In this document: positions 25,824 through 60,106 of the stretch, piece by piece
How positions within the stretch are numbered: the stretch's first letter is position 1
How the letters are laid out: each line of letters opens with the position of its first letter
Assembly: GCA_018069525.1 (NCBI GenBank)
Contig: JAGPUQ010000008.1
Location: forward strand, 186,001-250,000
DNA: 64,000 nt
Direction: 5' to 3'
Source: Porticoccaceae bacterium
Lineage (GTDB): Bacteria; Pseudomonadota; Gammaproteobacteria; Pseudomonadales; Porticoccaceae
Notes under the pieces: model-generated
What the model was told of the DNA's origin: nothing
Seen by the model: only the letters and a program-made list of their open reading frames with translations
The model's database searches: none
Program-made: the position numbers and the translations under genes

Positions 25824-26284
25824 GCGATACAACAGCCATGAGCGATAAGAAAGCCATGAGCGGGGATAAAACCTTGAGCGAACTCAGCGGAGTGACTATC
25901 GAAGACGGCAAAGTCGCTATCACCGAATACCTGTCGATAGATCTGGACAAAGAAACCTGGCACTGCCGACGTTGCGATCAAAATCTAGGTAGCGCACGCG
26001 GGCCGTACAAAGAAGCTTTGGTGGTTTACGAGCGCGAGCCCGCTGACATACACGACCCGGTTATCGATCCAAAAAAATACGCGTTTACTTATTCGCCAGA
26101 TCCAGACTGGTGCCGCATTATTGAATACTACTGCCCCCAGTGCGCAACTCAGATGGAGGTGGAATATCTGCCGCCGGGTCACCCGCTTACACTGAATGAC
26201 CTGGTGCTTGACATCGATAGCCTGAAAGCCCGACATCGAGCCGATGGACAGTCCGCGGACTCTGAACAAGGGAGTTCTAAATGA
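25820..26284 (+). CDS. Acetophenone carboxylase-like small zinc subunit (ApcB/gamma-like)
   Basis: A 154-aa protein with two CxxC pairs (C49/C52 in WHCRRCDQN, C105/C108 in YYCPQCATQ) forming a probable zinc ribbon, as in the small subunits of acetone and acetophenone carboxylases. The start at 25820 overlaps the preceding stop and is preferred over longer in-frame versions. Residues 1-18 hold three short repeats (MSDTTA, MSDKKA, MSGDKT) made by an 18-bp-type tandem duplication, an oddity absent from the core domain. It ends 1 bp before... the next ATG follows its TAA with no gap worth noting, so the genes are tightly coupled. Confidence 0.82.
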   Translation: MSDTTAMSDKKAMSGDKTLSELSGVTIEDGKVAITEYLSIDLDKETWHCRRCDQNLGSARGPYKEALVVYEREPADIHDPVIDPKKYAFTYSPDPDWCRIIEYYCPQCATQMEVEYLPPGHPLTLNDLVLDIDSLKARHRADGQSADSEQGSSK

Positions 26285-31653: not shown

Positions 31654-33213
31654 ATGCAACTCACTAGCCAGTCCGCCCAGTTTATGTTCCGCAATGCGTT
31701 GTGGCGCTACGCCGCAAAAACCGCCGTGGTAATCGATGGCGAGTCCTACACCTATAAACAGCTGGATGATCTGTCGAGCAACCTGGCGGCGTGTTTGCAC
31801 GCCGAGGGTGTGGGCAAGGGCGATCGCCTGGCAATTCTGTTTCGTAATTGCATAGAGTATGTGGTTACCGACCTGGCCATTTTAAAGCTGGGCGCGGTGA
31901 AAGTACCGCTCAATGAAATGCTCAGTGCGAGTGATGTGGCCTACATGATTGCGCATTCCGGTGCGAAGGCCCTGGTGGTGCATAGCTCCCTGGTGGATAA
32001 ACTCAACAAAGCCGAGCTGGTGACGACTGATCTCTCTATTATTCACGAGTTGGACGATGTGGGTAAGGGCATTGATGATGCCCATAAAAACTGGTCTGAT
32101 TTTTTTGATGGTGAACTGGAAACGTTTGAGTGGTTGCCGGTAGCGCCCGAGGACCCCGCATTTATTCTTTATACCGGCGGCACCACCGGGCGCTCCAAAG
32201 GGGTGTTGCACACTCACGGTGCGATGATGATTAACGGCCTCACCCACGTAATGAATGCTGAAATTGGTGAAACCGAGAAATTATTATTAATTAGTCCGCT
32301 GCCCCACGCGGCGGGGTTTATGTTGCAGGCGGGTTTGTTGCACGGCGCTTGCGTCCATATTCAAAGAAAATTTGATCCGGAAGTTGTACTCGACACCATC
32401 GCTCGGAACAAAATCACCTGGACCTTTATGGTGCCCACCATGATTTATCGGGTGCTGGACGCCTACGATTCGACTAAACATGAAATCAATTCGCTGCGCA
32501 CTTTGGTGTACGGCGCCGCGCCGATTACCAAAGTGCGCTTGCAGGAAGTACTGGATAAATTTGGTCCGGTGTTGTTGCAGTTGTTTGGTCAAACAGAGGT
32601 ACCAGATTTCGCCACCAAGTTATCCAAGGCCGATCATTTAGACGAGCGCTTTTTGGGCTCCTGCGGGCAGCCCATTCTTACTGCTGACGTGCGCATTGGT
32701 GATGACAATGGCGAACCACTCGCCTTTGGCGAGGTGGGTGAAATTATGGTGCGCTCTCCCTATACCTTGGAGTGCTATTACAACGATCCGGAAAAAACGG
32801 CCGAGGTGTACGCGGGCGAGTGGCTGAAAACTGGCGACGTGGGTTATCAAATCGATACTGGTCATGTGTTTATTGTCGATCGCTCCAAAGATATGATTAT
32901 TTCTGGCGGGATGAACGTGTACTCTTCGGAAGTTGAAAATGCAGTACAGGAATATCCCGGTGTCAAACAGGTAATGGTGATTGGTATTCCCGACGACGAC
33001 TGGGGCGAGGCCGTGTGTGCGGCGGTTATTCCGTCTGACGAGAGTTTCGACCAGGCCGAGCTTATCGCGTTTTGTAAAACCAGGCTCGCAGCTTATAAAG
33101 TGCCTAAAACCATTGAGGTAGTCGATGATATTCCGCTCACAGCTTACGGCAAGCCCGATAAAAAAACCCTGAGGGCGAAGTATTGGGGAGAGCAATCTCG
33201 CCAGGTTAATTAG
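31654..33213 (+). CDS. Acyl-CoA ligase, ANL superfamily (candidate beta-keto/aryl acid ligase)
   Basis: A 519-aa adenylate-forming enzyme that activates a carboxylic acid as acyl-AMP and then CoA ester. The AMP-binding loop is YTGGTTGRSKGVLHTHG; other motifs are YGAAPITK, QLFGQTE, EWLKTGDVG and SGGMNVYSSEVEN, with the catalytic Lys in YGKPDKKTLR. It follows the carboxylase operon, just as benzoylacetate-CoA ligase (Bal) follows apcABCDE in ethylbenzene degraders, so the carboxylase product is the likely substrate. The specific acid is inferred only. Confidence 0.88.
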   Translation: MQLTSQSAQFMFRNALWRYAAKTAVVIDGESYTYKQLDDLSSNLAACLHAEGVGKGDRLAILFRNCIEYVVTDLAILKLGAVKVPLNEMLSASDVAYMIAHSGAKALVVHSSLVDKLNKAELVTTDLSIIHELDDVGKGIDDAHKNWSDFFDGELETFEWLPVAPEDPAFILYTGGTTGRSKGVLHTHGAMMINGLTHVMNAEIGETEKLLLISPLPHAAGFMLQAGLLHGACVHIQRKFDPEVVLDTIARNKITWTFMVPTMIYRVLDAYDSTKHEINSLRTLVYGAAPITKVRLQEVLDKFGPVLLQLFGQTEVPDFATKLSKADHLDERFLGSCGQPILTADVRIGDDNGEPLAFGEVGEIMVRSPYTLECYYNDPEKTAEVYAGEWLKTGDVGYQIDTGHVFIVDRSKDMIISGGMNVYSSEVENAVQEYPGVKQVMVIGIPDDDWGEAVCAAVIPSDESFDQAELIAFCKTRLAAYKVPKTIEVVDDIPLTAYGKPDKKTLRAKYWGEQSRQVN

Positions 33214-36827: not shown

Positions 36828-37592
36828 ATGGGAAGAGTTCAAGACAAGGTGGCATTAATTACAGGCGGCACTGCGGGCATTGGTTATGCCAGCGCAGAAT
36901 TAATCTGTCGGGAAGGCGGTAAGGTGGTGATTACCGATCTGCGCCCGGCGGAAGGCGAGGCCTCGGCGCAAAAACTGCGTGATCAGGGCTACGATGCGAT
37001 GTTTGTCGAGCAGGACGTGACCGACGAAACGCGCTGGGAAGAAGTGATGGCCGAGGTGGTTAAACGGCACGGTCGCCTGGATATTCTGGTTAATAATGCC
37101 GGCGTCGGCATTGAAACCGATTTGGAGGAAAGTGATTTGGCCCACTGGCGATTTGTGAATGGGGTCAATATGGAAGCGGTGTTTATGGGCACCAAAAACG
37201 CCGTTAAGCAAATGAAACTCAACGGCGGTGGCAGTATTATCAATATCTCCTCCATCGAAGGTTTGGTTGGCGACCCTCGGTTTGGTGCTTATAACGCGAG
37301 TAAGGGCGGTGTGAGATTATTCACCAAATCGGCTGCACTCTATTGTGCCGAGAAAAAATATAATATCCGGGTGAATTCTGTGCACCCCGGTTTTACTCAA
37401 ACGCCGATGGTGGACGATGCGATCGGACTGTTTTCTGAAGCGGACGCCGAGCGTATTAATCGTGAAATTGCCATTGGTTATATGGCTGATCCTATTGATC
37501 AAGCCTACGGTATTTTGTTTTTGGCGTCCGACGAGTCCCGGTATATGACCGGCTCAGAGTTAGTGATTGACGGTGGTTACACGGCGCACTAG
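36828..37592 (+). CDS. Short-chain dehydrogenase/reductase
   Basis: A 254-aa classical SDR. The NAD(P) loop is TGGTAGIG, Asp in VVITDLRP suggests NAD(H) preference, NNAG is present, and the catalytic set is Ser in NISSIEG with Y-N-A-S-K. The end (GSELVIDGGYTAH) is typical. Between the carboxylase/ligase block and the CuMMO, it is a candidate secondary-alcohol dehydrogenase (compare 1-phenylethanol dehydrogenase, also an SDR) or a cis-diol dehydrogenase. Specificity cannot be read from sequence. Confidence 0.9.
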   Translation: MGRVQDKVALITGGTAGIGYASAELICREGGKVVITDLRPAEGEASAQKLRDQGYDAMFVEQDVTDETRWEEVMAEVVKRHGRLDILVNNAGVGIETDLEESDLAHWRFVNGVNMEAVFMGTKNAVKQMKLNGGGSIINISSIEGLVGDPRFGAYNASKGGVRLFTKSAALYCAEKKYNIRVNSVHPGFTQTPMVDDAIGLFSEADAERINREIAIGYMADPIDQAYGILFLASDESRYMTGSELVIDGGYTAH

Positions 37593-38331: not shown

Positions 38332-38461
38332 AGCCGTCAGCAGGAAAGAGCCTTCAGCAGGAAAGAGCCTTCAGCAGGGAACAGCCTTCAGCAGGGAACA
38401 GCCTTCAGCGGGGAAGAGCCTTCAGCGGGGAAGAGCCTTCAGCAGGGAAGAGCCTTCAGCA
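38332..38461. repeat. Tandem repeat, ~7.6 x 17 bp
   Basis: Seven complete head-to-tail units of AGCCTTCAGCAGGGAAG and a partial eighth, with substitutions shared by neighbouring units. The last copy overlaps the 3' end of the minus-strand SDR and contains its stop codon. There are no spacers, so it is not a CRISPR array. Confidence 0.95.
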
Positions 38462-39274
38462 AGCGGTAGAGCCGCCGTCCACCACGATTTCTGCTCCAGT
38501 GACCCAGGGAGATTGATCGCTGGCTAAAAACAATGCGGCCTTGGCGATATCGGCAGGCTCACCTTTCATGCCCAGTGGAGTGCCGCGTTCAAAGGCTTGC
38601 TGTACCGCCGCTTCATCCGCGCCCAGGCCGAGATCGACAAAACCTTTTAGTACCGCTTCACCCATATTGGTGGGAATCAAACCGGGGTGGATGGAATTTA
38701 CGCGGATGCCGTATTGCAGTTGCCCGAATTCCACGGCGGCGGCTTTAGTCAAGAGTTTGACCGCACCCTTGCTGCCGCAATAGGCGCTTAAGCCGGAGTA
38801 ACCGCGCAAGCCCGCAACCGATGACAGGTTGATGATGGAGCCGCCTTTGCCTGCGATGCCGCCTGGTTTCATTGCCTTGCAGGCGTGTTTTAAGCCGAGA
38901 AAAACACCGTTAACGTTAATATCCAAGATACGCTGGAAGTCTTCCAGTGTGGTGTTTTCAAACAGCGAGCAAATTTCGATGCCGGCATTGTTGACGACGA
39001 TGTCCAGCCCGCCAAGTTGCTTAACGGCGCTGGCGACGACGTTTTCCCAATCGCTTTCGCTGGTGACGTCGTGGCGAATAAATACCGCTGTGCCGCCGCT
39101 ATTGTTAATCTCAGCCGCAGTCGCCTGGCCTTCTTTTTCGAGGATGTCGGTGATGATTACCGAAGCGCCAGCACGAGCAAAGGTGTGAGCCATTTCAGCC
39201 CCCAGGCCACGAGCAGCTCCGGTGATCAGGGCAGCTTTTCCCGCTAACGAAATTTCAATAGAGGATTGAGTCAT
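38456..39274 (-). CDS. Short-chain dehydrogenase/reductase (second)
   Basis: A 272-aa classical SDR. The dinucleotide loop is TGAARGLG, Asp in VIITDILEKEG points to NAD(H), NNAG follows, and the active site is Ser in NLSSVAG with Y-C-G-S-K. It ends with GAEIVVDGGSTAC. It is only moderately similar to the other SDR here and may act on a different alcohol or diol, or as a ketone reductase. Its stop codon lies in the flanking tandem repeat. It is downstream of, and in the same direction as, the AraC-type regulator. Confidence 0.9.
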   Translation of the reverse strand: MTQSSIEISLAGKAALITGAARGLGAEMAHTFARAGASVIITDILEKEGQATAAEINNSGGTAVFIRHDVTSESDWENVVASAVKQLGGLDIVVNNAGIEICSLFENTTLEDFQRILDINVNGVFLGLKHACKAMKPGGIAGKGGSIINLSSVAGLRGYSGLSAYCGSKGAVKLLTKAAAVEFGQLQYGIRVNSIHPGLIPTNMGEAVLKGFVDLGLGADEAAVQQAFERGTPLGMKGEPADIAKAALFLASDQSPWVTGAEIVVDGGSTAC

Positions 39275-39333: not shown

Positions 39334-40401
39334 CTATCTTACTTTATCCCGATATTCGCTTGGTGATACGCCAAACCAGCGCTTAAACGCGCGACGAAAA
39401 CTGGTGGTATCCTGGTAACCCAGTTCCAGGGCAATGGAATCGATGGAGTTATCGGTGTTGCGCAAAGAGTCTATGGCCATTTGTTTGTAAATCATGTCGC
39501 GTAGCTCGCGGTAATTAGTACCTTCGGCCTGCAAGTACCGCATTAAGGTGCGCGAAGAAACGTTAAAATAACCCGCCATTTCCTTCAGCGTTGGCATTGC
39601 CTCCGGGGTTTTGCGCAACTCCGCTAATACGTGCTGCATGGTTAGATTGTTGGCGCGGATTTCCTGCATTTTTTGTTTCAGTTGTTCTTCGGCCAGGCGA
39701 TGGATTTGTGAATCCGCTGTGATGCAGCGAACGTTGGCTAGCGCAGCGGGTAATATCATTACGTTTTTGTCGCCGTTGAATTCGGTTTGCCCGGAAAAAT
39801 AGTTAGCGTATTGATCAACATATTTGGGCGTTGGAAACGCGAAGATGATTTTGCTATCAACTAATTTTTTTCCGCTGACAAATTCCAATGCATTCTGTAG
39901 CGTTAACATCAGTGTTTCGAGAATCACGGTTTGCATGTGTGGAAAAGAGTGCGTTTTCACCATTTCCAGAAAAATTTTGTCGTCCTGGTAATATACTTCC
40001 AGGTCACAGAAAGTAATAGAGGTTTGGTAATATCTGGCGGCATCTTTAATAGCCTGACCCACGGTTTCCGCCGAAATGATAGCCATGCCCACCGGGCCGT
40101 GTGTGGATATATGGAGCCTGGAGCCTAGGGACAATCCCGCATCCGGAATGTTTTGGGTCTCGATAACTTCAAACACCGCCGCCGCGAGGAGATCAAACTT
40201 AATCGATCCTGAGGAGTTTTCCAGCAATTCGCGAGTAATGCCGTGGCGGGAAAAAATCTCTTCCACGATAGGTGTGTTGCCCAGGGTATGGAAGACCAGA
40301 TTGGCGTAGCTGGAAGTCACAAATTTACTGTCGAGGGGCGGCTGCTGACGAGCAACTTGTTCGATGTTTTTACTGTCGGAATGCGGGGGTTCAGTCGTCA
40401 T
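39334..40401 (-). CDS. AraC-family transcriptional regulator
   Basis: A 355-aa regulator with an N-terminal arabinose-binding-type ligand domain (PF12625-like; HGPVGMAIISAETVGQAIKDAARYY) and a C-terminal AraC double helix-turn-helix (FNVSSRTLMRYLQAEGTNYRELRD; IALELGYQDTTSFRRAFKRWFGVSPSEYR). It is transcribed away from the CuMMO operon, with its start 690 bp from that of the C subunit, so it is the best local candidate to control the CuMMO and/or the SDR genes. The inducer is unknown. Confidence 0.92.
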   Translation of the reverse strand: MTTEPPHSDSKNIEQVARQQPPLDSKFVTSSYANLVFHTLGNTPIVEEIFSRHGITRELLENSSGSIKFDLLAAAVFEVIETQNIPDAGLSLGSRLHISTHGPVGMAIISAETVGQAIKDAARYYQTSITFCDLEVYYQDDKIFLEMVKTHSFPHMQTVILETLMLTLQNALEFVSGKKLVDSKIIFAFPTPKYVDQYANYFSGQTEFNGDKNVMILPAALANVRCITADSQIHRLAEEQLKQKMQEIRANNLTMQHVLAELRKTPEAMPTLKEMAGYFNVSSRTLMRYLQAEGTNYRELRDMIYKQMAIDSLRNTDNSIDSIALELGYQDTTSFRRAFKRWFGVSPSEYRDKVR

Positions 40402-41090: not shown

Positions 41091-41882
41091 ATGTCACAAG
41101 CTAGAACAGCATATTACTCAGAGGCCAACCTCGTTAATGACTCGGGCGCTGCGGGCCACTTTCGTCGAAATCGCATTTTTTATGTGGGTGGCGCGGTAGC
41201 TCTGGCGATAGCCATAGCGCTTCGTATCTATCAGCAAACCATGTCATTTAGCGTGGGTACTGACTACTACGAGCCGGAATTCCAGACTTACTGGATGTCC
41301 CTGCTATATATCGAAGTAGTCGTCTTGTCGGCGATTGGGATAATAGGTTCGGTGTATGTGTGGTTCACACGCGAAACCGATGCCGCGTCGATTTCCCCTC
41401 AATTAGAGCTGAGCCGCTACTTCAAGCTATTGGGCGTGCTTTCGGTTATCGGGCTTTGGGCTGTTACCGTAGCCGCGCTGGCGATTGAGTCCGATGCATC
41501 CTGGCATCAGGTCACCATTCGCGATACTGACTTCACGCCAACTCATATTGTGATTTTCTACTTTGCCATCCCTTTGTTGACGGCGATTTTAATACCTACC
41601 TTTATCTGGACGCATACGCGTATCCCTGCCTTTATGAATCGCGTTTCTCTGCCTTTCCTCGCGGTGGTGTGCGGTATCTTTATGATTATGCCCAACTACG
41701 GCTTTAACGAGTGGGGCCATACCTTCTTCTACGCTGAAGAGTTGTTTTCTGCGCCGATTCACTACGGTTTTGTAGTGATGGGCTGGTCGCTATTCTTCCT
41801 GGTGCCTTTGGCAATCCAGATTATCCAGCGCATGGCTCAGTTAATTGCAGAGGTGTCTAAGGACGATACTGCTGTGGCCTAA
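41091..41882 (+). CDS. Copper membrane monooxygenase subunit C (PmoC/AmoC family)
   Basis: A 263-aa polytopic membrane subunit of the CuMMO superfamily. Both copper sites of PmoC are intact: D135-x3-H139-x12-H152 (CuC site, in SDASWHQ...FTPTH) and N206-x3-H210-x13-H224 (CuD site, FNEWGH...APIH). This spacing equals that of characterised methane monooxygenases, so the enzyme should be catalytically competent. No methanol dehydrogenase or hydroxylamine oxidoreductase is present, which favours a hydrocarbon monooxygenase over methane or ammonia oxidation. A strong hairpin separates it from subunit A. Confidence 0.93.
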   Translation: MSQARTAYYSEANLVNDSGAAGHFRRNRIFYVGGAVALAIAIALRIYQQTMSFSVGTDYYEPEFQTYWMSLLYIEVVVLSAIGIIGSVYVWFTRETDAASISPQLELSRYFKLLGVLSVIGLWAVTVAALAIESDASWHQVTIRDTDFTPTHIVIFYFAIPLLTAILIPTFIWTHTRIPAFMNRVSLPFLAVVCGIFMIMPNYGFNEWGHTFFYAEELFSAPIHYGFVVMGWSLFFLVPLAIQIIQRMAQLIAEVSKDDTAVA

Positions 41883-41930
41883 TTGACCGGCACGCTTTTG
41901 ACTTAGACCTTAGCTACTCTGAGTGTTGTA

Positions 41931-41963
41931 TAGCCCCCGCGAAGTAAAGCTTTGCGGGGGCTA
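41931..41963 (+). terminator. Hairpin between CuMMO subunits C and A
   Basis: A perfect 10-bp GC-rich stem (TAGCCCCCGC / GCGGGGGCTA) with a 13-base loop, followed by a short T-containing stretch. It lies 49 bp after the C-subunit stop. It may attenuate transcription or stabilise the 3' end of a C-only transcript. Confidence 0.75.
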
Positions 41964-42092
41964 TCTTATTAAGGGTTTAATTTGTTGTTAGCAGATTGTC
42001 GTTTTAACGGCTTGCTTGTTTGCCGTTGAGCCTGTGTTATAAGTGACAAAATATTATTCTAATTTGTTTCTCAAAAATTTGAGGTTATTGCG

Positions 42093-42881
42093 ATGAGTGT
42101 TGAATTACCCGCTGATAAAATCACTGACGTACAGAGATTTGATTTGTCAGTACTTACCCGGCCGTCGGCGCAGAAGTTCTATAAGCGTTTCGACGGTATT
42201 ATTATTTTTGTTCTATTCGCCTTTATTGCTCTTGGCATCATGCTGCAATACTCGCTGACGGCGGGCGATTGGGATTACTGGGTCGACTGGCGCGATCGTC
42301 GCTGGTGGCCCCTGGTAACACCCATTACCTTTATGATTTTTATTGGTGGCTTTATGTACCCAGTATGGCGAGCCTTTCGCCTGCCGGTTATCGCCACCGC
42401 GGTTACCACATTGCTGGCCTTATCTTCGTGGGTTAGTCGCTACTACAATTTTCATCTGTTTGCCGATTTCCCCATGAGTTTTGTGTTTCCGTCTACCTAT
42501 ATTGCTTTAGGTATTTTGATGGACTGCGTGCTCGCGATGACTCGCAGCATGATTATGACCACAATTGTAGGTGCTTTTTTATTCGCAGGTTTGCTCTGGC
42601 CGGTTAACTGGCCTTTGTTAGCGGCGTATAAAGTGCCGGTGGAGTACAACGGTTTACTACTGTCGGTTTCCGATTTGATGGGCTACGAATACGTTCGTAC
42701 TACCACGCCTGAATATTTGCGTATTATCGAGGAGTCCACCTTGCGTACCTTCGGTGGCTCGGTGACGCCGCTGACGGCGGTGTTTGCGGCCTTTGCCAGT
42801 ATATTGGTTTTCGCGTTGGCCACCATGGCTAGCTCAGCGATCTATAACTATGCAGGTCGTTACACCCGACGTATCGCTTAG
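42093..42881 (+). CDS. Copper membrane monooxygenase subunit A (PmoA/AmoA family)
   Basis: A 262-aa polytopic membrane subunit. Recognisable family features are the N-terminal loop GDWDYWVDWRDRRWWPLVTPI, FPSTYIALGILMDCVLAMTRS, WPVNWPLLAAYKVPVEYNG and the C-terminal GYEYVRTTTPEYLRIIE. PmoA/AmoA forms the trimer interface and the membrane cavity with subunit C and is the usual phylogenetic marker. Its length lies between PmoA (~247) and AmoA (~274). It is preceded by a 210-bp gap containing a terminator and GAGG before the ATG. Confidence 0.94.
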   Translation: MSVELPADKITDVQRFDLSVLTRPSAQKFYKRFDGIIIFVLFAFIALGIMLQYSLTAGDWDYWVDWRDRRWWPLVTPITFMIFIGGFMYPVWRAFRLPVIATAVTTLLALSSWVSRYYNFHLFADFPMSFVFPSTYIALGILMDCVLAMTRSMIMTTIVGAFLFAGLLWPVNWPLLAAYKVPVEYNGLLLSVSDLMGYEYVRTTTPEYLRIIEESTLRTFGGSVTPLTAVFAAFASILVFALATMASSAIYNYAGRYTRRIA

Positions 42882-43018
42882 CTTCGCGACGTAAAATTTC
42901 GATTCAGTGGCTCGACTTGGCAATAACCTTGCAAGTCGGGCTAGTTAATTCAAAGCACGTTTAGTGTGCGATATTATTGGCAGCGTCATTTGGGCGCTAC
43001 TTACGACAGGTGTTTTTT

Positions 43019-44266
43019 ATGAACCTTGGCACAAAATTTTTAAAACTTATCAGCGTACTGGCTTTGCTGGTATTGGTATCCGGCGATGCAATGGCTCACG
43101 GCGAGCGCGCCCAGTTGGCTAGTATGCGCATGCGAACTGTTCACTGGTTCGATATTAAAGTCGAGCCACAGAACGCGAAAGTGGGTGACACCATTGTTAT
43201 GACGGGTAAGTTTATCCCTTCTAAATTTTGGCCAGAGCAACTACCTAGCGTTGACGATACGTTTTTTCTCAATGTCGGTTTGCCCGGTCCAAAATTTATT
43301 CGTGTGAACTCTGAAATAAATGGCGTGCCAATGATCCGCTCTACTGCAGCGGAAAAGGGTAAGCTCTACGAGTTTAAAGTTGTGGTGCGGGCGCGGGTTG
43401 CCGGTCGTTACCATATGCATCCTTTACTCAACGTGAAGGACGCAGGTACTTTGGTAGGTAAGGGTACCTGGATCGATGTTGATGAAAGCGACAGCGATGC
43501 CCCCTATGTGAATGAAGTCACCACCATGCAAGGGGATGTTATTGACCTGGAAAACTATGCGCTAGGCAATGTGTATTTTTGGCATGTAGTTTGGATTATT
43601 TTAGGTGTCGCCTACCTGGTTTACTGGTTAATTTTGCCGAAAAAAGGCGTGTTTATTCCTCGTTATATGTTCATAGCTGAATCGGGTATTGATAAAGCTA
43701 ATAGCCTGGTTACCAAGAAAGACTTTATGGTTTCCGGTGTATTTTTTACCGTTACTTTGGCTATTATTTTGACTGGTTATCTGTGGGCGGAAAGCAAATA
43801 TCCGGTTACTATTCCGCTACAGACCGGTAAGGTGGAAGTGGTCGGCTACGAAGTGCCTACAGGTGGTCTGGAAATCGCGGTCGAGAACGCGACCTACGAA
43901 TTAACCGGCCGCAACTTGTCAATGCGCACGCGAATGAAAAATACCAGTGCATCACCGATACGCATTGCTGAGTTTATTACCGCTAACATACGCTTTATCA
44001 ACGACAAAGTGCCAGGTACTGGTATGGTTGCTGGCGAAGAGATGGTTTCTAAGGACGGCCTGAGTGTTTCGGTAGATGTGATTGCGCCCGGACAAGAAGT
44101 GGATGTGTTGCTTAAGGCAGAAGATGCACTTTGGGAGAAATATCGCATGACCGGTTTGATTTACGATCCGGATAGCCGCTTTGCCGGCATGCTGTTTTAC
44201 TACGATGCCCAAGGCAATCGTTATCAGCAGGAAGTTGGCGGCGCAGTATTGCCTTCTAACTTCTAA
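43019..44266 (+). CDS. Copper membrane monooxygenase subunit B (PmoB/AmoB family)
   Basis: A 415-aa subunit with two periplasmic cupredoxin domains joined by two TM helices (~195-215 and ~235-260). The signal peptide is cut after AMA so that the mature chain begins with His (H27), the N-terminal copper ligand. H132 and H134 in GRYHMHP complete the CuB site, as in PmoB. An in-frame TTG at 42977 is less likely than ATG 43019. It follows subunit A by 137 bp and is followed by a hairpin. Confidence 0.94.
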   Translation: MNLGTKFLKLISVLALLVLVSGDAMAHGERAQLASMRMRTVHWFDIKVEPQNAKVGDTIVMTGKFIPSKFWPEQLPSVDDTFFLNVGLPGPKFIRVNSEINGVPMIRSTAAEKGKLYEFKVVVRARVAGRYHMHPLLNVKDAGTLVGKGTWIDVDESDSDAPYVNEVTTMQGDVIDLENYALGNVYFWHVVWIILGVAYLVYWLILPKKGVFIPRYMFIAESGIDKANSLVTKKDFMVSGVFFTVTLAIILTGYLWAESKYPVTIPLQTGKVEVVGYEVPTGGLEIAVENATYELTGRNLSMRTRMKNTSASPIRIAEFITANIRFINDKVPGTGMVAGEEMVSKDGLSVSVDVIAPGQEVDVLLKAEDALWEKYRMTGLIYDPDSRFAGMLFYYDAQGNRYQQEVGGAVLPSNF

Positions 44267-44313
44267 AAACATGCTAAACGGCGCTGCGTGCATCGATGTA
44301 TGCGTCTTCGATG

Positions 44314-44339
44314 CGGGCTGCCATTAGGTGGCCCGTTTT
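44314..44339 (+). terminator. Terminator after CuMMO subunit B
   Basis: A stem CGGGCTGCC / GGTGGCCCG with an ATTA loop (some G-T pairs) followed by TTTT and TTTT after one G. It ends or attenuates the C-A-B transcript before the accessory genes. Confidence 0.7.
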
Positions 44340-44401
44340 GTTTTGGGGAAAATAACTAAAACCTGCTTTAGCCGGTAGTGTTAAATGTGGAGTGCTTGTT
44401 T

Positions 44402-45019
44402 ATGTGCCGCTTTATAGAAATGAAACTAGCTGCAATGCTTGTTCTACTATCGCTTACCTTCGCTCCGGGTTTGGCCCTGGGTCACGGTGGCGTTTCGGTG
44501 GAGGACGACGTATGCCTTATCAAGCTGGGAACCTACCGAGCGCACTTTACTGGTTACTTGCCTAAGACCCGTGCTACCCAGGAATTTTGTGAAGATATTC
44601 CCGAGGCCACAGATAGTATTTTTGTGATTGATTTTATCAGCGACGAATTGCGCGATATGGAGTTGGACTTTCGCATCGTTCGCGATGTTAAAGACATCGG
44701 TGTTCAAGCGACCTATGAAGACCTGGGTGGCGAGCAAGCTATCGAAGAGGCGACTATTTTCTACAATCCCCCGACCATTTACCCAAAGGGAGTCTTCAAC
44801 GTCCGCTATCCCTTTACAGAGGACGGTGGCTATATTGGCATCGTCAATGTTCACCATGTTGAAACCGGATTAAAGTACCGCTCTGTATTCCCTTTCAGCG
44901 TGGGTGGGGCTCAATACGGTAAATATATTGTTTACTACGCATTGCTGTTTGCCTTTTGTGGCGTATTTATTTGGGGAGCGGGCCGCAACGCGTTTTTCAC
45001 CAAGCGCCAGGAGAAGTAA
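44402..45019 (+). CDS. HGG secreted, membrane-anchored protein of CuMMO locus
   Basis: A ~205-aa protein with a signal peptide ending LGHGG, so the mature N-terminus contains His near position 1, a periplasmic domain with two Cys (DVCLIKLG and FCEDIP) and a C-terminal TM helix (YIVYYALLFAFCGVFIWG). This topology resembles PmoD/AmoD, the accessory proteins of CuMMO operons, but I could not see the CuA-like motif of PmoD and do not assign it. The ATG at 44402 has GGAG nine bases upstream; 44420 is an alternative. It is five bases from the multicopper oxidase start, so the two are probably translated together. A role in copper handling is inferred. Confidence 0.65.
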   Translation: MCRFIEMKLAAMLVLLSLTFAPGLALGHGGVSVEDDVCLIKLGTYRAHFTGYLPKTRATQEFCEDIPEATDSIFVIDFISDELRDMELDFRIVRDVKDIGVQATYEDLGGEQAIEEATIFYNPPTIYPKGVFNVRYPFTEDGGYIGIVNVHHVETGLKYRSVFPFSVGGAQYGKYIVYYALLFAFCGVFIWGAGRNAFFTKRQEK

Positions 45020-45024
45020 TCTTC

Positions 45025-46803
45025 ATGGGGTCTTTGGCGCGCGCAACCACTGTCGTTATTTTGTTGCTGGTGTGTGCGCTGCTATTACCCTGGGAGTCCT
45101 ACCCCCGCAGCTGGAAGCTTTGGTACGCCGATACCTTCGGTGCAACCTCCTATAACCCCGCCTCGGCTTCCGTACCTAGTACACCGCCTGCTACCCAGAC
45201 AGAAGACTTCGAAGAAATTTGTCCCGCGGACGTCAAAGGTTGGCGCAAGGCTCAAACCATCGCCGGGGTCAAAATTTCTGCTTCCCCCGTGTGCATGCCC
45301 GACAACCCCTGGGCGATTGCCGCTTTTGTGCAGGGCACTAACAACGTCAAACATATGGCCTTGATGAATGCCCGCTTAGCCCCCGATGCGGTGGTCAAGG
45401 GTAGGGATCTCGACGGCGATGGCGACCCCGATGAAATTCATATTCGGCTTGAAGTCTTTGAGCTCAACGGCGGCTCCCCCGATCTGGATGTACCTGTGGT
45501 GCAATTCCCCATCGCCCCCGGTATTAAGCCGGGCCTGTGGGTGTTTGCGCCGAAGTCTTCGGGAATGTCTACGGAAAACTTTGAGTCGATAATGGCCCAG
45601 CCGGGGATACGTTTACCTTCACCGGCGATTCGGGTTGAGCAGGGTGACGTGGTCAAGGTGACCCTCGAAAACACCCATTACATGCCCCACACCATCCATT
45701 TTCACGGGGTGGATCACCCCTTCCTCGATGCCGAGGGCGAGGGTAACGACGGCGTGCCGGTGACCAGCGAATCCCCGGTGATGCCCGCCCATACCCGCAC
45801 CTATAATTTCCAGCCCCGCCAGCCGGGCACCATGTTTTACCACTGCCACGTACAGGTGCAGGCCCACGTGCTGATGGGTTTGCAGGGCATGTTTGTGATT
45901 GAAGAAAACCGCCCTAACAACTGGGTGCAGACCTTCAATATTGGCGACGGTTATGTGCGCCACAGTTCGGTGGCGGTGCGGGAGAAATACGACCGCGAAT
46001 ACGATCTCCACTATCAGGATATCGATAAGGAGCTCGGCGAGCGGGTGCAGGCATCCAACGATCCCCGCGTTATTACTCGCCTGATACATCGGGATTACGA
46101 CATCACCCAGGCCGACGCGGACTATTTCACCCTCAATGGCCACTCCTTTCCCTATACGGCTCGGGATGCCCTGATCGTCACCAAACCCGACGAATTGCTG
46201 AAGTTGCGGGTATTAAACGGCGGCAGCGAAGGTATCGCGCTGCACACCCACGGCCACAAAGTCACCATTTCTCATTACGATGGCGTCGAATACCCCGAGC
46301 CGGTGCGTATTACCCGCGACGTGGTGTGGATCGCTTCCGCCCAGCGACTTGATCTCGAGCTGTCGGCTAAAAACGATGGTTTGCACAGTTACGGTGAAGG
46401 CGTGTGGATACTGCATGACCACCAGGAAAAAGGTGTTACCACTGGCGGCATCGGACCGGGTGGCAACGTGGGCATTATTGTTTACGATAAATATTTAGAG
46501 GATAACGGCTGGCCGATGACCTTTGGGGTCGATTGGAGCAACTATTTCAGCGAAGATTACTATCAACGCAAAATCCCGGTGTGGAGTAGCTACGACGACA
46601 CTAATCGTTTCGGTGATGTGCAGGGCAGCGTTTGGCCGAAGCTCAAAATCGTGCTGCTATTGCTGTTGTCCGGTATTGCCCTGGGTCTTGTCTATCGCTG
46701 GGTTTTTACTGGGGACAAGGGTTTGGACCTTAAGGTCTCTGACGATAAGGCTTCTGGAGATAAGGTCCCTGGAGATAAAACCTCTGGAGATCGGCATGAT
46801 TGA
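45025..46803 (+). CDS. Membrane-anchored multicopper oxidase of CuMMO locus
   Basis: A 592-aa laccase-like protein with a TM helix at each end (N: VVILLLVCALLLPW; C: IVLLLLLSGIALGLVYRW) and a periplasmic body. Copper motifs are HTIHFHGVDH, FYHCHVQVQAHVLMGLQG (HCH...H with Leu/Gly at the T1 axial position), LHTHGHKV and ILHDHQEKG. The HCH-type motif is in the middle rather than at the C-terminus, so domain order is unusual for a classical three-domain laccase. The C-terminal cytosolic or periplasmic tail has a 15-bp-encoded (S/P)GDK repeat. It could oxidise Cu(I) or pass electrons. Start 45025 is preceded by AGGAGA. Confidence 0.85.
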   Translation: MGSLARATTVVILLLVCALLLPWESYPRSWKLWYADTFGATSYNPASASVPSTPPATQTEDFEEICPADVKGWRKAQTIAGVKISASPVCMPDNPWAIAAFVQGTNNVKHMALMNARLAPDAVVKGRDLDGDGDPDEIHIRLEVFELNGGSPDLDVPVVQFPIAPGIKPGLWVFAPKSSGMSTENFESIMAQPGIRLPSPAIRVEQGDVVKVTLENTHYMPHTIHFHGVDHPFLDAEGEGNDGVPVTSESPVMPAHTRTYNFQPRQPGTMFYHCHVQVQAHVLMGLQGMFVIEENRPNNWVQTFNIGDGYVRHSSVAVREKYDREYDLHYQDIDKELGERVQASNDPRVITRLIHRDYDITQADADYFTLNGHSFPYTARDALIVTKPDELLKLRVLNGGSEGIALHTHGHKVTISHYDGVEYPEPVRITRDVVWIASAQRLDLELSAKNDGLHSYGEGVWILHDHQEKGVTTGGIGPGGNVGIIVYDKYLEDNGWPMTFGVDWSNYFSEDYYQRKIPVWSSYDDTNRFGDVQGSVWPKLKIVLLLLLSGIALGLVYRWVFTGDKGLDLKVSDDKASGDKVPGDKTSGDRHD

Positions 46804-47527
46804 TCTGGTTGCGATACGGTCAGGGCGCGGCGGTTTGAATCTGGCGTCGTCAGCAGGGCTGTCATTAAGGGGTCTATTATTAGTAGGTCTATTAATAGGC
46901 GGTCATGCCTTTGCGGAAGAGAAGGGTGGCATGGCCATGGATCACAGCATGCAGGGCGGCATGGTGATGGATGCCACCGGGATGGTGATGAATGCCAACA
47001 GCGAGAGATTGCCGGAAGATTGCGAAAAAATTTCTCGGGACTACGAATTTACTGTTATCGCCGGCACTAAATACGCCGAGCCCTTTGCGGATACCATGTT
47101 CGGCTTTAACCAGCACGAGTGGAAGGTGGAGCCCTGCAGCCGGATTACCGTGACCTTTAAAAACGAAGATCAGGTGCGCCACCAGTGGATGGTGCACGGT
47201 TTACCCAAGTATATTTACGATCAGGGTATGTTTCACATGGAGGCGGCCGGGGGTCACACCCAGGTCGGCACCTTTATCGTACCCAGCGACGATCGCACCT
47301 ACCTTGCTCACTGCGATATTGCTCAGCATATGGAAAAAGGCATGAAGGCTCAGCTGGTAGTGGGCCGAGGCGACGGCGATTTGTGGAGCATCCCCGGGCT
47401 TACAGCCAAGTTCGAGCGTCCACCCACCGCGACATTTCTTCCTCGCTGGATATGGCTGGGTTTGTTACTCGTCGGGTTTATAAGCGCGGCCTATCTGTGG
47501 CCGCGGTTGATTAAAAGAGGTCGTTAG
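46796..47527 (+). CDS. Met-rich membrane-anchored cupredoxin
   Basis: A 243-aa protein whose signal peptide is followed by a Met/His-rich segment (GGMAMDHSMQGGMVMD), typical of Cu(I) binding. A cupredoxin domain follows with type-1 ligands: His in VRHQWMVHG and the Cys-His-Met set in AHCDIAQHMEKGM. A C-terminal TM helix (WIWLGLLLVGFISAAYLW) anchors it. It starts inside the 3' end of the multicopper oxidase gene (8-bp overlap), so the two form a unit. It could donate electrons or copper to the CuMMO or the oxidase. Confidence 0.85.
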   Translation: MIDLVAIRSGRGGLNLASSAGLSLRGLLLVGLLIGGHAFAEEKGGMAMDHSMQGGMVMDATGMVMNANSERLPEDCEKISRDYEFTVIAGTKYAEPFADTMFGFNQHEWKVEPCSRITVTFKNEDQVRHQWMVHGLPKYIYDQGMFHMEAAGGHTQVGTFIVPSDDRTYLAHCDIAQHMEKGMKAQLVVGRGDGDLWSIPGLTAKFERPPTATFLPRWIWLGLLLVGFISAAYLWPRLIKRGR

Positions 47528-47799: not shown

Positions 47800-50229
47800 T
47801 TGGAGACAACACGGTATCGCATAGCCCGATTTATGATGGCTAACACGTGGGCATCTATGGCCGTATTATTGGCCATCACGGTGTTTTTTCTGGTTGGCGT
47901 TAAAAACGTCGAACTTAAAACTATCTTTACAGATTTGCTGCCGAAAGATCATCCTTTCGTTCAAACCTATAAAGATCACCCCAATTTTGGTAACCCCCTG
48001 ACTGTGACTGTGATGGTCAAGCGGATCGATGGGCAAACCATCTACAATCCCGAGACCTTGCAAAAAGTCTGGGATATGACCCGCAATATCGATCTGGTCG
48101 CTGGTGTCGATCACGATCAAATTCTGTCCATTACCACAGAAAAGGCCCGTTACGCTCAGGCCACGCCCTTTGGTATTGATAGCCAACCCTTGATGGGCGA
48201 TCGCCCACCTCAGACTGATGAGGAAATGGAAATTTTCAGGGATTTGGTGAAAAAATCTCCGGGTAGCCGGACTTTTTTGATCTCCCAGGATGAAACCGCC
48301 ACCTTAATTCAGGCTACGTTTATCGAGCGTGTACTCGATTACGGTGTGGTGTTTGAGGAAATTCAGAAAAATATTATCCAGGCCGAACTCGATGATGTTC
48401 ACGAGATACACGTGGCGGGCCAGCCGATGCTGACCGGGTGGGTGTATTTTTACGAAAAAGAAATGCTGGGCATTTTCGCCGTCACTGCGGCAGCCTTGTT
48501 GCTGTCTTTAGTTTTTTATATGAGAAATGTTGTCGGCGTAGTGGTGCCGGTGGTATGCAGTATCGTGTCGGCCATTTGGGGCTTCGGTTTTGTCGGTTGG
48601 ATCGGCGATCCCATCGAGCCGCTGATTATGGTGGTTCCCCTGCTGTTGATTGCGCGCTCGTTTAGTCACTGTGTGCAGTTTATCGAACGCTATTACGAGG
48701 TTTACTACCACGTTAAGGACAAAAAGAAAGCCGCTGAAATTTCCCTTAGCGTAATGATGGCTCCGGGTATCCTGGGTATTGTCACCGACTCTATCGGTTT
48801 GTTTTTGATTGCGGTTGCACCGATTCCCACCATGGAACGTTTTGCGGTATTTTGTGGCTTCTGGGCGATGACCCTAATTCCTGCCAACGTGTTCCTGGGC
48901 CCGCTATTGCTGGCAGTTTTGCCTGAGCCTAAAAACGTTAAAAAGATGATTGGTCTGGATACCGGTGGTGGCTTTAGCTTCCACGCCAGTCTTAAGCATA
49001 TGCTGCAAAAGGTTGCGCGCGTCAGTTACGGTGGCCCAGCCAAAGTGACCACTGTTGTATTGGTGGTGCTGTTTGGCTTGAGTATTTACAAGATGCTGCA
49101 AATCAAAATCGGCAACCCGGTCGAGGGTAGCAATTTGTTGTGGAGCGACTCGGAATACAATGTGGCGGTAGGTAAAATCAACGCCCATTTCCCCGGTTTG
49201 AATACCCTCGAAATTATTTATGAGGTTAAGGAGGAGTCGGCTCAGCGCTTGCTTAAGCAGGCCGATCCTATCTTTGCGATGACGCAATTGCAGCGCCTGA
49301 TGGAAAGTGGCGAAAATCCGCCAGTGGCGACCCTGTCATTTGCCGATTATTTACCGGAGGCAAGTCGTTTATTTAGTGGCGGTAATCCCAAATGGGGCCC
49401 GTTGGACAATGACGATGCGGCGGTGAGCGCGTCGGCGGGGGCAGTGCTGTTTGGCAGTAGTCCGAAAGCCTTCTCCCACGTGACTGACTTTACTCAGCAA
49501 AACGGCACCGTGTCTCTGTGGTACAAGGACAACAAGCAAGAGACGGTAGACCGGGCTCTCGAGCAGGTACGTGGCGCATTGGATGAAGTGGGCATCGAGC
49601 GAGACACCTACAATATTCGTTTGGGCTCGGGCACTATTGCTCTGCAGCAGTCCATCAACGACACGGTGGATAAATACCAGTACGTCATTCTTGCCCTCCT
49701 TAACCTGGCAATTTTGATTACCTGTAGCTACGCCTATCGCTCGGTTGTCGCTGGAATACTGCTACTGATACCAGTGAATATGTCCAATTGCTTTTTGGCA
49801 GCGGTGATGGTGTATATGGGCATGGGTCTGGATGTAAACACCCTGCCGATTGCGGCCATTGGTATCGGCGTGGGTATCGATTACGGGATTTACCTCTTAA
49901 GTCGAATCTGTGAGGAATACCAGGAACATCAGGACTACGGTCTGGGAATTGTCGCCGCTGTTGCGACAACTGGTAAAGCGATTTTCTTTACCGCGAGTAT
50001 TGTGTTGATGGGTATTCTGCCCTGGTACTTTATGTCGGAGCTGAAATTCCTCGCCGACATGGGTCTGTTACTGGTCATGGTGATGTTGATCAATATGGTT
50101 ATCGCCCTGGTGGTCGTACCTTTGCTGGTGTGGTTGATCAAGCCGAAATTTGTTAGCTCTAAAGACCTGCTGGTTAGCGAAAGCGTGGATTTGTCGGATT
50201 ACACGGCTGGCGACGAGGCGTACGAATAA
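47800..50229 (+). CDS. MMPL/RND-superfamily transporter
   Basis: An 809-aa inner-membrane transporter with 12 predicted TM helices and two large periplasmic loops, of the MMPL/hopanoid-exporter type. GIGVGIDYGIYLLSRICEEYQE is the signature of TM10-type proton-relay segments, and its N-terminal counterpart is WIGDPIEPLIMVVPLLLIARSFSH. The start is TTG behind AAGGAGG. It is coupled to the downstream YCF48-like gene. In aromatic and lipid degraders, such proteins cluster with DUF1302 and DUF1329 genes, as here, so envelope transport of a hydrophobic compound is the likely role. Confidence 0.88.
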   Translation: METTRYRIARFMMANTWASMAVLLAITVFFLVGVKNVELKTIFTDLLPKDHPFVQTYKDHPNFGNPLTVTVMVKRIDGQTIYNPETLQKVWDMTRNIDLVAGVDHDQILSITTEKARYAQATPFGIDSQPLMGDRPPQTDEEMEIFRDLVKKSPGSRTFLISQDETATLIQATFIERVLDYGVVFEEIQKNIIQAELDDVHEIHVAGQPMLTGWVYFYEKEMLGIFAVTAAALLLSLVFYMRNVVGVVVPVVCSIVSAIWGFGFVGWIGDPIEPLIMVVPLLLIARSFSHCVQFIERYYEVYYHVKDKKKAAEISLSVMMAPGILGIVTDSIGLFLIAVAPIPTMERFAVFCGFWAMTLIPANVFLGPLLLAVLPEPKNVKKMIGLDTGGGFSFHASLKHMLQKVARVSYGGPAKVTTVVLVVLFGLSIYKMLQIKIGNPVEGSNLLWSDSEYNVAVGKINAHFPGLNTLEIIYEVKEESAQRLLKQADPIFAMTQLQRLMESGENPPVATLSFADYLPEASRLFSGGNPKWGPLDNDDAAVSASAGAVLFGSSPKAFSHVTDFTQQNGTVSLWYKDNKQETVDRALEQVRGALDEVGIERDTYNIRLGSGTIALQQSINDTVDKYQYVILALLNLAILITCSYAYRSVVAGILLLIPVNMSNCFLAAVMVYMGMGLDVNTLPIAAIGIGVGIDYGIYLLSRICEEYQEHQDYGLGIVAAVATTGKAIFFTASIVLMGILPWYFMSELKFLADMGLLLVMVMLINMVIALVVVPLLVWLIKPKFVSSKDLLVSESVDLSDYTAGDEAYE

Positions 50230-50291
50230 TGTTGAAACAATACTTAGTTACCAGGCGACGCGTATCGTCTGAGCAAAAGAGGAATTCAATA

Positions 50292-51242
50292 ATGGTGTTT
50301 AGAGCTTTGTGTTCTATTTTGTTACTGCTTGGCATTAGCTCTGCGCATGGGGCTGAAGCTGAGGAAGGCCTGCTGACCGAGCGCTATCGGGGCATTGCTC
50401 ACGACGCCCTCTACGATGTCTGTTTTGATCAAGAAAATGGCATGGCGGTCGGCGTTGCTGGCACCGTACTTGAAACAGCAGATGCCGGGATCACCTGGAC
50501 CTCTACTTCAATGGCCCTCCCGGCGGCTTTACTGGGCGTTGATTGCCTGGGTCAAAGACCGATTGTCGTGGGCCAGGGTGGCATCATATATACCAAGTTG
50601 GGTGGTGCCTGGCAGCAAGTCGAGTCTGGTACGCAGGAGCGGCTGATGTCCGTTAGCGCCAATCGCCAGGGTTTGGCTGTTGCCGTTGGTGGTTTTGGTG
50701 CTTTGCTTAAATCTGTCGACGGCGGTCAAACCTGGGCGTCGCTTAGCGTCGATTGGGAAGCGGTGTTGAACGACTTTTTAGAGCCCCACCTCTACGACGT
50801 ACACGTAACGGAAGCGGGTATTATTATTCTCACCGGCGAGTTTGAGTTAATCATGCGTTCTGCCGATGGTGGTGAAACCTGGGAAACCTTAAACAAGTCC
50901 GACTCTTCACTATTTGCGATGTATTGGATAGATGACGCCACCGGGTTCGCGGTGGGTCAGAATGGTAAGGTATTGCGGACGGCGGACGCTGGCCTAAGCT
51001 GGGAAAGTCTTGATGTCGATACCGATCAGAATTTACTTGATGTCTGGGCCGACGCCGATGGTAGCGTGGTGGTTAGTGGTATTCGTACTCTGCTCAAAAG
51101 TGCTGATAAGGGCTTGAGTTGGTTGTCGGTGCGAGAAGGCGATGTGTCCGTGCAGTGGTATCAGGCGGTAGCTGCTTCTGGTGGCGCAGAGCGCAATGTA
51201 GTGATGGTTGGCCACTCTGGCCGCGTCGTACAGGTAAACTGA
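50292..51242 (+). CDS. YCF48/BNR-repeat periplasmic protein
   Basis: A 316-aa secreted beta-propeller. The signal peptide (FRALCSILLLLGISSAHG) is followed by repeated GxTWxxL-type BNR/YCF48 units (DAGITWTSTS, DGGQTWASLS, DGGETWETLN, DAGLSWESLD, DKGLSWLSV). An in-frame ATG at 50229 overlaps the transporter stop, but 50292 has GAGGAA eight bases upstream and starts the signal peptide. Members are named after a photosystem II assembly factor but in heterotrophs accompany MMPL transporters and DUF1302/1329 proteins. Probably a scaffold or partner of the transporter. Confidence 0.85.
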   Translation: MVFRALCSILLLLGISSAHGAEAEEGLLTERYRGIAHDALYDVCFDQENGMAVGVAGTVLETADAGITWTSTSMALPAALLGVDCLGQRPIVVGQGGIIYTKLGGAWQQVESGTQERLMSVSANRQGLAVAVGGFGALLKSVDGGQTWASLSVDWEAVLNDFLEPHLYDVHVTEAGIIILTGEFELIMRSADGGETWETLNKSDSSLFAMYWIDDATGFAVGQNGKVLRTADAGLSWESLDVDTDQNLLDVWADADGSVVVSGIRTLLKSADKGLSWLSVREGDVSVQWYQAVAASGGAERNVVMVGHSGRVVQVN

Positions 51243-59861: not shown

Positions 59862-59913
59862 TCGTTTTGACCCCATATTGCTAATGGCTTGATTTGCTGT
59901 TGCAATAAGAAAT

Positions 59914-59952
59914 AACCGTACTACTGATTCGCATTGGTAGTACGGTTTTTTT
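59914..59952 (+). terminator. Terminator after first DUF1329 gene
   Basis: An 11-bp stem (AACCGTACTAC / GTAGTACGGTT) with a 12-base loop followed by a run of T. Intrinsic terminator. Confidence 0.85.
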
Positions 59953-60036
59953 ATGGATGAAATAATATTGGCGCTTAGCTATAGGGCTACGAAGGGATAT
60001 TGAGAGATTTTATCTAACTGTGAGGCGGTGAAAAAC

Positions 60037-60106
60037 AAAGTCATACCATAAAAGTCATACTATAAAAGTCGTACTATAAAAGTCGTACTATAAAAGGCAT
60101 ACTATA
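60037..60106. repeat. Tandem repeat, 5 x 14 bp
   Basis: Five copies of AAAGTCATACTATA with small changes (GTAC/CATAC). It lies in the gap between the two DUF1329 genes, upstream of the duplicated regulatory region. Confidence 0.9.

Follow-up and report, generated by a model that had tools for sequence, protein, structure and literature searches.

The protein PmoD or AmoD can accompany copper membrane monooxygenases (CuMMOs). Its role in methane and ammonia oxidation has been difficult to establish, in part since these organisms do not lend themselves to manipulation and since PmoD has been reported only from genomes with CuMMO. In the cited passages of Fisher et al. (2018, PMC6189053), PmoD homologues bound copper, a pmoD mutant showed a copper-dependent growth defect, every genome with PmoD was said to carry CuMMO, a tested representative of the Cx9HxnC class formed no CuA site, and some PmoD genes of methanotrophs, tied to the Cx8MxnC class, lay near multicopper oxidase (MCO) genes. 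Here, a 64,000-nucleotide stretch of a Porticoccaceae bacterium (GenBank assembly GCA_018069525.1, contig JAGPUQ010000008.1, positions 186,001 to 250,000), hereafter the window, was analysed. It carries a six-gene locus in which CuMMO subunits C, A and B are followed by a PmoD homologue, an MCO and a type-1 cupredoxin (Table 1). These last three genes, referred to below as the trio, were also found inside or beside cytochrome c oxidase (COX) operons of bacteria in which no CuMMO was detected, and they are proposed to encode a candidate copper-handling module.

The protein encoded behind subunit B had been described in an earlier sequence-only reading as an exported, membrane-anchored "HGG protein" with copper motifs. 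Scans against Pfam and NCBIfam gave no match for it. A profile built from 30 homologues retrieved PmoD (6cpd, E = 3.3e-21) as the sole PDB match up to E = 10, and an AlphaFold model (pLDDT 87) was aligned with the same structure by Foldseek (E = 1.1e-13; TM 0.86 on the target and 0.56 on the query). Since profile and model both matched 6cpd, the protein was identified as PmoD, which ruled out a new family. The description as an exported, anchored copper-motif protein stood, the C-terminal helix spanning residues 166-193 of the model and the signal peptide being called by eye. The HGG motif was invariant across the 30-sequence alignment, and the two conserved cysteines were present in 84 of 85 sequences (C32, one gap) and in all 85 (C57). 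Position C+8 was arginine in the window protein and lysine or arginine in 29 of the 30 aligned homologues; the CuA methionine is therefore lacking, and the motif Cx7MxHxnC of the CuA-forming subclass is not matched. A His-brace at the N-terminal histidine was considered and rejected, given weak matches to lytic polysaccharide monooxygenase folds (E about 2e-3), a pLDDT under 50 for residues 22-25 and the absence of the histidine from some copies.

A PmoD protein search of a species-genome collection gave 39 loci. The synteny set comprised 88 stretches, namely these 39 loci, 48 further ones and the window, with two duplicates taken out (L154, the same as L027, and L165, the same as L024); L041-L070 and the short loci L079-L108, L129-L147, L168-L178 and L191-L206 were left out. 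The stretches read were about 3.6-20 kb long and differed in length. Some loci and sampled genomes belong to the same species (L007 and G063, L015 and G064, L040 and G010), hence the locus counts are not independent. CuMMO and PmoD occurred together at 48 loci, 27 of which also held the MCO. The gene order was thus conserved in relatives, so that the sequence-only reading was not refuted by a lack of synteny, as it would have been had no relative shown the order, and a chance neighbourhood of the accessory genes was ruled out by synteny in many genomes. A loss of the MCO-cupredoxin pair from L007 and L015, of the same genus as the window, was likewise ruled out, the pair being kept in both genomes on other contigs than CuMMO.

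The trio was not confined to CuMMO loci. It was found whole in six genomes without CuMMO; COX1 lay in the stretch read for five of them, and the sixth (G241) carries CyoE-PmoD-MCO-cupredoxin on a 4.3-kb contig. The single-strand run CyoE-COX2-COX1-COX3-COX3-COX4-PmoD-MCO-cupredoxin was found in G526 and the order PmoD-MCO-cupredoxin-thioredoxin-like-COX2-COX1 in G305, while the trio adjoins an opposite-strand COX operon in G380 and G324 and stands immediately 5' of COX2-COX1 at L031. The intergenic gaps within the trio were 5 and 2 nt at the COX-operon locus L148. Pfam matched COX2 in G305, CtaA next to the G168 copy and, in G380, COX1, COX3, UbiA and a COX2 with cytochrome c. Genes of the thioredoxin-like and heme A/O synthase types border some COX-linked copies. 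PmoD also adjoins COX2-COX1 in G168, G227 and G172, and the window genome itself has a second PmoD (L109:7687-8358, the same as G000:C22:38686-39357) 350 nt upstream of COX2-COX1-COX3-COX3-COX4. Of the 35 PmoD loci without subunit B, 12 had COX1 in the stretch read; of the 48 with it, none had. The CuA motif CxxxCxxxHxxM was found in all 11 neighbouring COX2 proteins scoring over 300 bits. A self-contained copper module had been suspected behind CuMMO, and a conserved set is indeed there; that it belongs to CuMMO alone was not supported.

The occurrence of the genes was further recorded in a sample of 390 genomes of the order, with PmoD counted at E<=1e-8, the MCO at E<=1e-40 and CuMMO as a Monooxygenase_B match. 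CuMMO was detected in 9 genomes, PmoD in 29 and the MCO in 13. All 9 CuMMO genomes had PmoD versus 20 of the 381 without CuMMO, and the MCO was present in 8 of 9 versus 5 of 381. Such tracking would be expected if the trio consisted of subunits or loaders for CuMMO alone, its COX neighbours being an unrelated later reuse, and the deep branches of PmoD are mostly CuMMO-linked as well. However, PmoD and the MCO-cupredoxin pair occur in near-complete genomes without CuMMO, and the three genes lie together inside a COX operon; a CuMMO-specific set is accordingly considered highly improbable. The 20 genomes of the order with PmoD and without CuMMO were 97-100% complete, one of them a single contig. 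Among 369 genomes of the class, PmoD was found in 13; besides that of the window, 10 of the 12 have CuMMO and two (G526 and G648) do not. Three of 279 genomes of the phylum had PmoD, G1002 newly among them. Two of the four genomes reached through loci (those of L031 and L029, of unstated completeness, the latter only 1.3 Mb in size) had PmoD and no Monooxygenase_B match. In all, 24 genomes with PmoD and without detected CuMMO were examined, which contradicts, for the family, the statement that PmoD occurs only with CuMMO (PMC6189053); the statement holds for the window genome, where a single Monooxygenase_B match was found. This revises the use of PmoD as a marker of methane or ammonia oxidizers.

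A group of PmoD genes stood apart from both contexts. In 15 of the 24 genomes the stretch read lacked COX genes: PmoD stood alone in seven, all of one genus, and was accompanied in eight by a YtkA-like gene and a di-haem peroxidase (in one of them PmoD and YtkA were fused). Two further genomes of the 24 combined COX, a PmoD-YtkA fusion and the peroxidase. As a separate observation, PmoD and a YtkA-like domain share one reading frame, followed by a di-haem cytochrome c peroxidase, at L117:7570-8601, L118:7093-8145 and L149:7714-8703.

The history of the trio was approached through trees. The PmoD tree held 83 rows of an initial 87 (L154, L165, the fragment L021 and L162 were dropped), and the MCO tree 38 rows, after L154 and matches under 300 aa had been dropped. 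Twenty-nine PmoDs formed one clade (100/99): 13 linked to COX (one of these through CyoE only), 8 linked to the peroxidase and 8 others. This clade was sister (98/92) to a 17-row CuMMO clade containing the window. The 7 COX-linked MCOs likewise formed one clade (100/98), sister to the 15-row clade of the window (93/84). In a joined tree of the 31 loci with all three genes (L154 excluded), the 6 COX-linked trios grouped together (100/100) within the 23 CuMMO-linked ones, the outgroup being two stand-alone trios, and the monophyly of all CuMMO trios was rejected (p-AU 0.004). One transfer from the CuMMO to the COX context would be the simplest reading of these topologies. It is tentatively proposed, at slightly below even chances, that the trio is one metallation module for unrelated membrane copper enzymes, which originated alongside CuMMOs, passed a single time to CuA-type COX and then spread to bacteria without CuMMO as an undescribed CuA assembly route. 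It counts against this history that the clade test was chosen post hoc after the other trees, that several rows are long branches and that the PmoD and MCO trees were midpoint-rooted; the fork joining the COX clade to the window clade in the trio tree reached only 84/73.

The best PDB profile matches of the MCO were 3g5w and 2zwn, the latter named a two-domain laccase; the former we take to be the blue copper oxidase of N. europaea, and "type C" is presumably the label for such MCOs. The type-1 and trinuclear ligand set was spread over two cupredoxin domains, with one HCH motif, including the type-1 cysteine, in the first and HTHGH and HDH in the second. The 11 assigned ligands were kept in 39-41 of 41 sequences; the other sequences have gaps there. 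The axial position that motif spacing predicts is leucine in 36 of these sequences, methionine in 4 and a gap in one. The order of the HCH motifs had been called atypical at first sight; it proved to be the usual one for two-domain MCOs with type-1 copper in domain 1.

The cupredoxin, read from the ATG at 46796, had been expected to be a Met-rich type-1 protein, and the alignment agreed: the protein shows an HCD...H...M motif and an N-terminus rich in methionine and histidine, the ligands H130, C174 and H179 were present in 37 of 37 sequences and M184 in 36 of 37, and Met133 and Met146 (37/37) as well as His135 and His148 (36/37) were conserved. A search of its profile against PDB sequences gave none at E<=0.01. 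The model (pLDDT 77, pTM 0.59) matched two-domain laccases best (E = 5e-7, with a TM of only about 0.34) and auracyanin at E = 3.7e-6 (TM 0.61 on the target). A co-directional cupredoxin adjoined the MCO at 34 of the 39 MCO loci, in one case fused to it, and the other five loci end at a contig edge. The fusion (L076:8090-10099, minus strand, genome G302) joins the MCO, a cupredoxin-like domain in which some conserved residues are missing, and CusF (4.2e-13) in one 669-aa protein. The MCO-cupredoxin pairing and the CusF fusion argue for a copper function that would have been recruited by CuMMO and COX operons.

Copper loading and electron delivery had both been suggested for the locus at the outset. 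In an electron-transfer module, the cupredoxin and PmoD would carry electrons between three partners: the MCO, CuMMO or COX, and the respiratory chain. They might, for instance, supply reductant to CuMMO or pass excess electrons to O2 via the MCO. The complete type-1 sites of the cupredoxin and the MCO fit this role, CuMMO and COX are both redox enzymes of the same membrane, and di-haem peroxidase genes lie beside PmoD at 10 of the 35 loci without subunit B. However, PmoD is of a class without the CuA methionine whose tested member formed no CuA according to the cited part of PMC6189053, and the CusF fusion and the Met/His-rich tail point to metal binding. Moreover, the 11 COX2 neighbours carry fused CxxCH motifs of their own (two in ten of them, one in the eleventh), so that another electron donor would have no obvious use. 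The COX context and the MCO-cupredoxin-CusF fusion may favour copper handling over electron delivery, and electron transfer as the main function is judged unlikely.

A copper function may also be purely protective. The trio would then act as a cuprous oxidase system, holding down periplasmic Cu(I) near copper-rich membrane enzymes, which add to the copper burden, and would deliver nothing. The distant similarity of the MCO to CopA and CueO and the same Met/His-rich cupredoxin and CusF fusion are compatible with this explanation, as is the same-genus genome G062, in which the MCO-cupredoxin pair was present and neither CuMMO nor PmoD was detected. Detoxification would not readily account for trios nearly contiguous with COX or CuMMO genes at many loci, and the MCO scored far under the NCBIfam cut-offs of the CopA (51.9 of 478.95 bits) and CueO (39.5 of 525 bits) oxidases. 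We regard it as fairly unlikely.

It is therefore with a modest degree of confidence that the trio is read as a transferable periplasmic copper-handling module, which would gather copper and hand it over to neighbouring membrane copper enzymes. All three proteins appear to be exported and anchored in the membrane. Cu(I) would be taken up by the cupredoxin through its Met/His tail and type-1 site, the MCO would set the redox state of the copper with O2 as the acceptor, and PmoD, through Cys32, His42, Cys57 and His22 near its mature N-terminus, would pass the copper to the CuMMO sites. The COX-linked trios of some relatives would serve the CuA subunit of cytochrome c oxidase instead.

Several points weigh against this module. 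Synteny is no proof of copper transfer: the sequences show gene content, copper ligands, the MCO-cupredoxin pairing, conserved neighbourhoods with two unrelated copper enzymes and a nested clade of COX-linked trios, while the transfer, its direction and its targets are inferred. The fully ligated MCO could act as a cuprous oxidase for detoxification. The MCO was not seen at 21 of the 48 loci with CuMMO and PmoD, although several of these end early and L028 has an MCO fragment at its contig end. The 15 genomes mentioned above have PmoD with neither CuMMO nor a neighbouring COX gene, and MCO-cupredoxin pairs occur without PmoD, CuMMO or COX in the stretches read at L075, L077, L207 and L208 (3.6 kb in the last case). 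In the family of the window, CuMMO was found in 16 of 112 genomes and the MCO in all 16, in two of them on other contigs, and the 17 members without CuMMO that were listed gave no MCO match, a distribution that would suit a set serving CuMMO alone.

If the copper-handling module is correctly recognized, the trio offers a specific candidate route for supplying CuMMOs with copper. Since PmoD and its two partners occur in COX operons of bacteria without CuMMO, the question of PmoD function becomes testable by ordinary COX assays in easier hosts.

The CuMMO genes themselves were confirmed. The six genes were located where the sequence-only reading had placed them, all on the forward strand, and the Pfam matches of the three subunits were above the cut-offs of their families. 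The nine copper ligands that had been named were found at the expected residues: D135, H139, H152, N206, H210 and H224 of subunit C were invariant in 28 of 28 aligned sequences, and H27, H132 and H134 of subunit B in 34 of 34, the window being included in both alignments, from which C sequences of <=230 aa and B sequences of <=380 aa had been dropped. His27 of subunit B is likely the mature N-terminus. Against the NCBIfam models AmoC, AmoA and AmoB, subunits C, A and B scored 247.4, 249.6 and 462.7 bits (cut-offs 319, 290 and 336), so that only B was above. All scores against the CH4_NH3 models were below the cut-offs (222.4 of 280.6, 226.5 of 318.15 and 357.1 of 394.9 bits). A phylogeny had been called for; it was run as a quick tree of PmoA and PmoB with few named references and placed the window in a 31-row gammaproteobacterial clade of Porticoccaceae and Nevskiaceae rows, with Solimonas and Panacagrimonas, apart from the pMMO-like G618 and G730, from G803, which is like ammonia-oxidizing bacteria, and from the actinobacterial rows. 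No grouping with methane or ammonia oxidizers was seen, and the CuMMO of the window is classed by sequence as a putative non-methanotroph, hydrocarbon-type operon. A CuMMO of unknown function has been noted in Solimonas aquatica (PMC6215863), and Cycloclasticus metagenome-assembled genomes blooming on n-pentane were described as carrying phmo copies, one within a clade of "unknown" function (PMC12510462).

Table 1. Features of the window; positions are counted from its first nucleotide
Feature	Position	Strand	Evidence
Acetophenone-carboxylase-like ApcA-B-C-D cluster	23886..30676	+	NCBIfam ApcA/B/C/D matches, all under curated cut-offs
Acyl-CoA ligase	31654..33213	+	Pfam AMP-binding; upstream of the CuMMO locus in G010, G063, G064
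Second short-chain dehydrogenase/reductase (SDR)	36828..37592	+	Pfam; 83-85% identical in L007, L015, L040
SDR dehydrogenase	38456..39274	-	Pfam adh_short_C2; 78-80% identical in L007, L015, L040
AraC-family regulator, divergent from the CuMMO operon	39334..40401	-	Pfam Arabinose_bd and HTH_18
CuMMO subunit C (PmoC/AmoC family)	41091..41882	+	Pfam AmoC 1.4e-67
CuMMO subunit A (PmoA/AmoA family)	42093..42881	+	Pfam AMO 7.3e-72; phmmer against pMMO/AMO structures, best 6cxh 4.5e-59
CuMMO subunit B	43019..44266	+	Pfam Monooxygenase_B 2.3e-119
Terminator-like hairpin between subunit B and PmoD	44313..44336	+	Consensus scan, 10 pairs, tail TTTGTTTTGG
PmoD/AmoD homologue (HGG protein), Cx9HxnC class, periplasmic domain and C-terminal helix	44420..45019	+	PmoD 6cpd profile match
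Two-domain MCO, type-1 copper in domain 1, extra N-terminal domain, hydrophobic ends	45025..46803	+	Best PDB profile match 3g5w 1.1e-38
Met/His-rich type-1 cupredoxin with C-terminal helix	46796..47527	+	Overlaps MCO by 8 nt
MMPL/RND transporter	47830..50229 (start 47800 or 47830)	+	Pfam MMPL 5.2e-28; conserved behind the trio in relatives
YCF48-like protein	50229..51242	+	Pfam PSII_BNR 1.3e-20; synteny

Gaps of 210 nt between C and A, 153 nt between B and PmoD and 5 nt between PmoD and the MCO were measured. The hairpin between B and PmoD may set the accessory genes at a lower transcript level than the CAB genes or place them in a transcript of their own, so that co-transcription may not be assured; with 17 terminator-like sites in the window against 12.9 (sd 4.1) in shuffles, the support for this hairpin is weak. 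A GC-rich inverted repeat at 41932-41963, in the C-A gap, was noticed by eye and is absent from the terminator-scan list. In the kin of the window, the conserved run extends past the cupredoxin into the MMPL and YCF48 genes, and the AraC regulator precedes CuMMO at five loci (L007, L008, L015, L040 and, at 38%, L016).

The Apc-like set and the CoA ligase lie 8-17 kb upstream of CuMMO. In G010, a genome from the same family but a different genus, the Apc set (ApcABCD 73-92% identical), the ligase, the SDRs and AraC stand beside CuMMO. In G063 and G064 the ligase and SDRs are kept and the stretch read gave no Apc match; the stretches read of G091, G006, G093 and G087 held none of the upstream set, save a 35% ligase match in G006. 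This conservation in G010 suggests subterminal hydrocarbon oxidation via a ketone, with ketone carboxylation by the Apc-like cluster as a possible downstream pathway. A methanol dehydrogenase, whose absence nearby the first reading had remarked, was not found among the 28 window proteins scanned with Pfam, of 52 open reading frames of at least 150 aa; a route from a secondary alcohol to a ketone and its carboxylation would account for this. The CuMMO substrate under this ketone route is a guess.

Further observations were made in the window and in related genomes. A Rieske ring-hydroxylating dioxygenase large subunit and an opposite-strand AndAd/BenB-like small subunit are found at 20228-23659, near the Apc-like cluster. 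A tandem pair of very similar DUF1329 genes (469 aa each, 92% identical over a 300-nt stretch at their start) lies between two DUF1302 genes at 58452-61769, and genes of the DUF1329/DUF1302 type follow CuMMO in several relatives. At L161:5593-9818 (G825), the CuMMO operon lies between two sequence-divergent PmoDs of the same strand, and a stand-alone PmoD-MCO-cupredoxin trio is present elsewhere in that genome (L156). CsoR-like and P-type-ATPase-like genes, called by eye, lie at L151:14695-16002 (G620), about 6 kb from a CuMMO and PmoD locus without the MCO. Plasmid records gave PmoB matches in 5 and MCO matches in 36; of the latter, the best 15 were mostly from haloarchaea and Cytobacillus, and none covered 80% of the query. 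No gene annotated as PmoD or MCO was found at two actinobacterial Hmo plasmid loci.

Compared with described systems, the window PmoD shares with PmoD, AmoD and AmoE (Methylocystis PmoD 6cpd; PMC6189053) a cupredoxin-like periplasmic domain, two conserved cysteines, a C-terminal helix and a place within the CuMMO operon; it differs from the CuA-forming PmoDs, which have methionine at C+8 where its own Cx9HxnC class has arginine or lysine. The trio had been thought not to be a described set, which is true in part: PmoD is known, and the PmoD-MCO neighbourhood of methanotrophs (Fisher 2018, PMC6189053) resembles it, extending to a cupredoxin also in G618 (L163), whose CuMMO groups as pMMO-like. 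The methanotroph neighbourhood belongs to the Cx8MxnC class, in contrast to the Cx9HxnC PmoD of the window, and the cited part of that paper mentions neither a cupredoxin partner nor COX operons. The open-access literature, searched by titles and abstract openings among the matches listed (subscription papers, preprints and supplements lay outside this scope), gave no report of PmoD in bacteria without CuMMO or in COX operons. The window MCO has the order HxH, HCH, HTHGH or like, and HDH in common with 3g5w and 2zwn, and is distinguished by leucine at the presumed axial site, by both termini being hydrophobic in most members, as judged by eye, and by an extra N-terminal domain with two conserved cysteines and a DxDxDGDPDE loop. 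Copper insertion into COX is carried out by the known systems Sco, PCuAC and TlpA; to our knowledge, none of the three trio proteins is known as a COX assembly factor. Like these systems, the trio would consist of exported copper proteins, and thioredoxin-like genes are its neighbours at two COX-linked loci (one by Pfam, one by eye).

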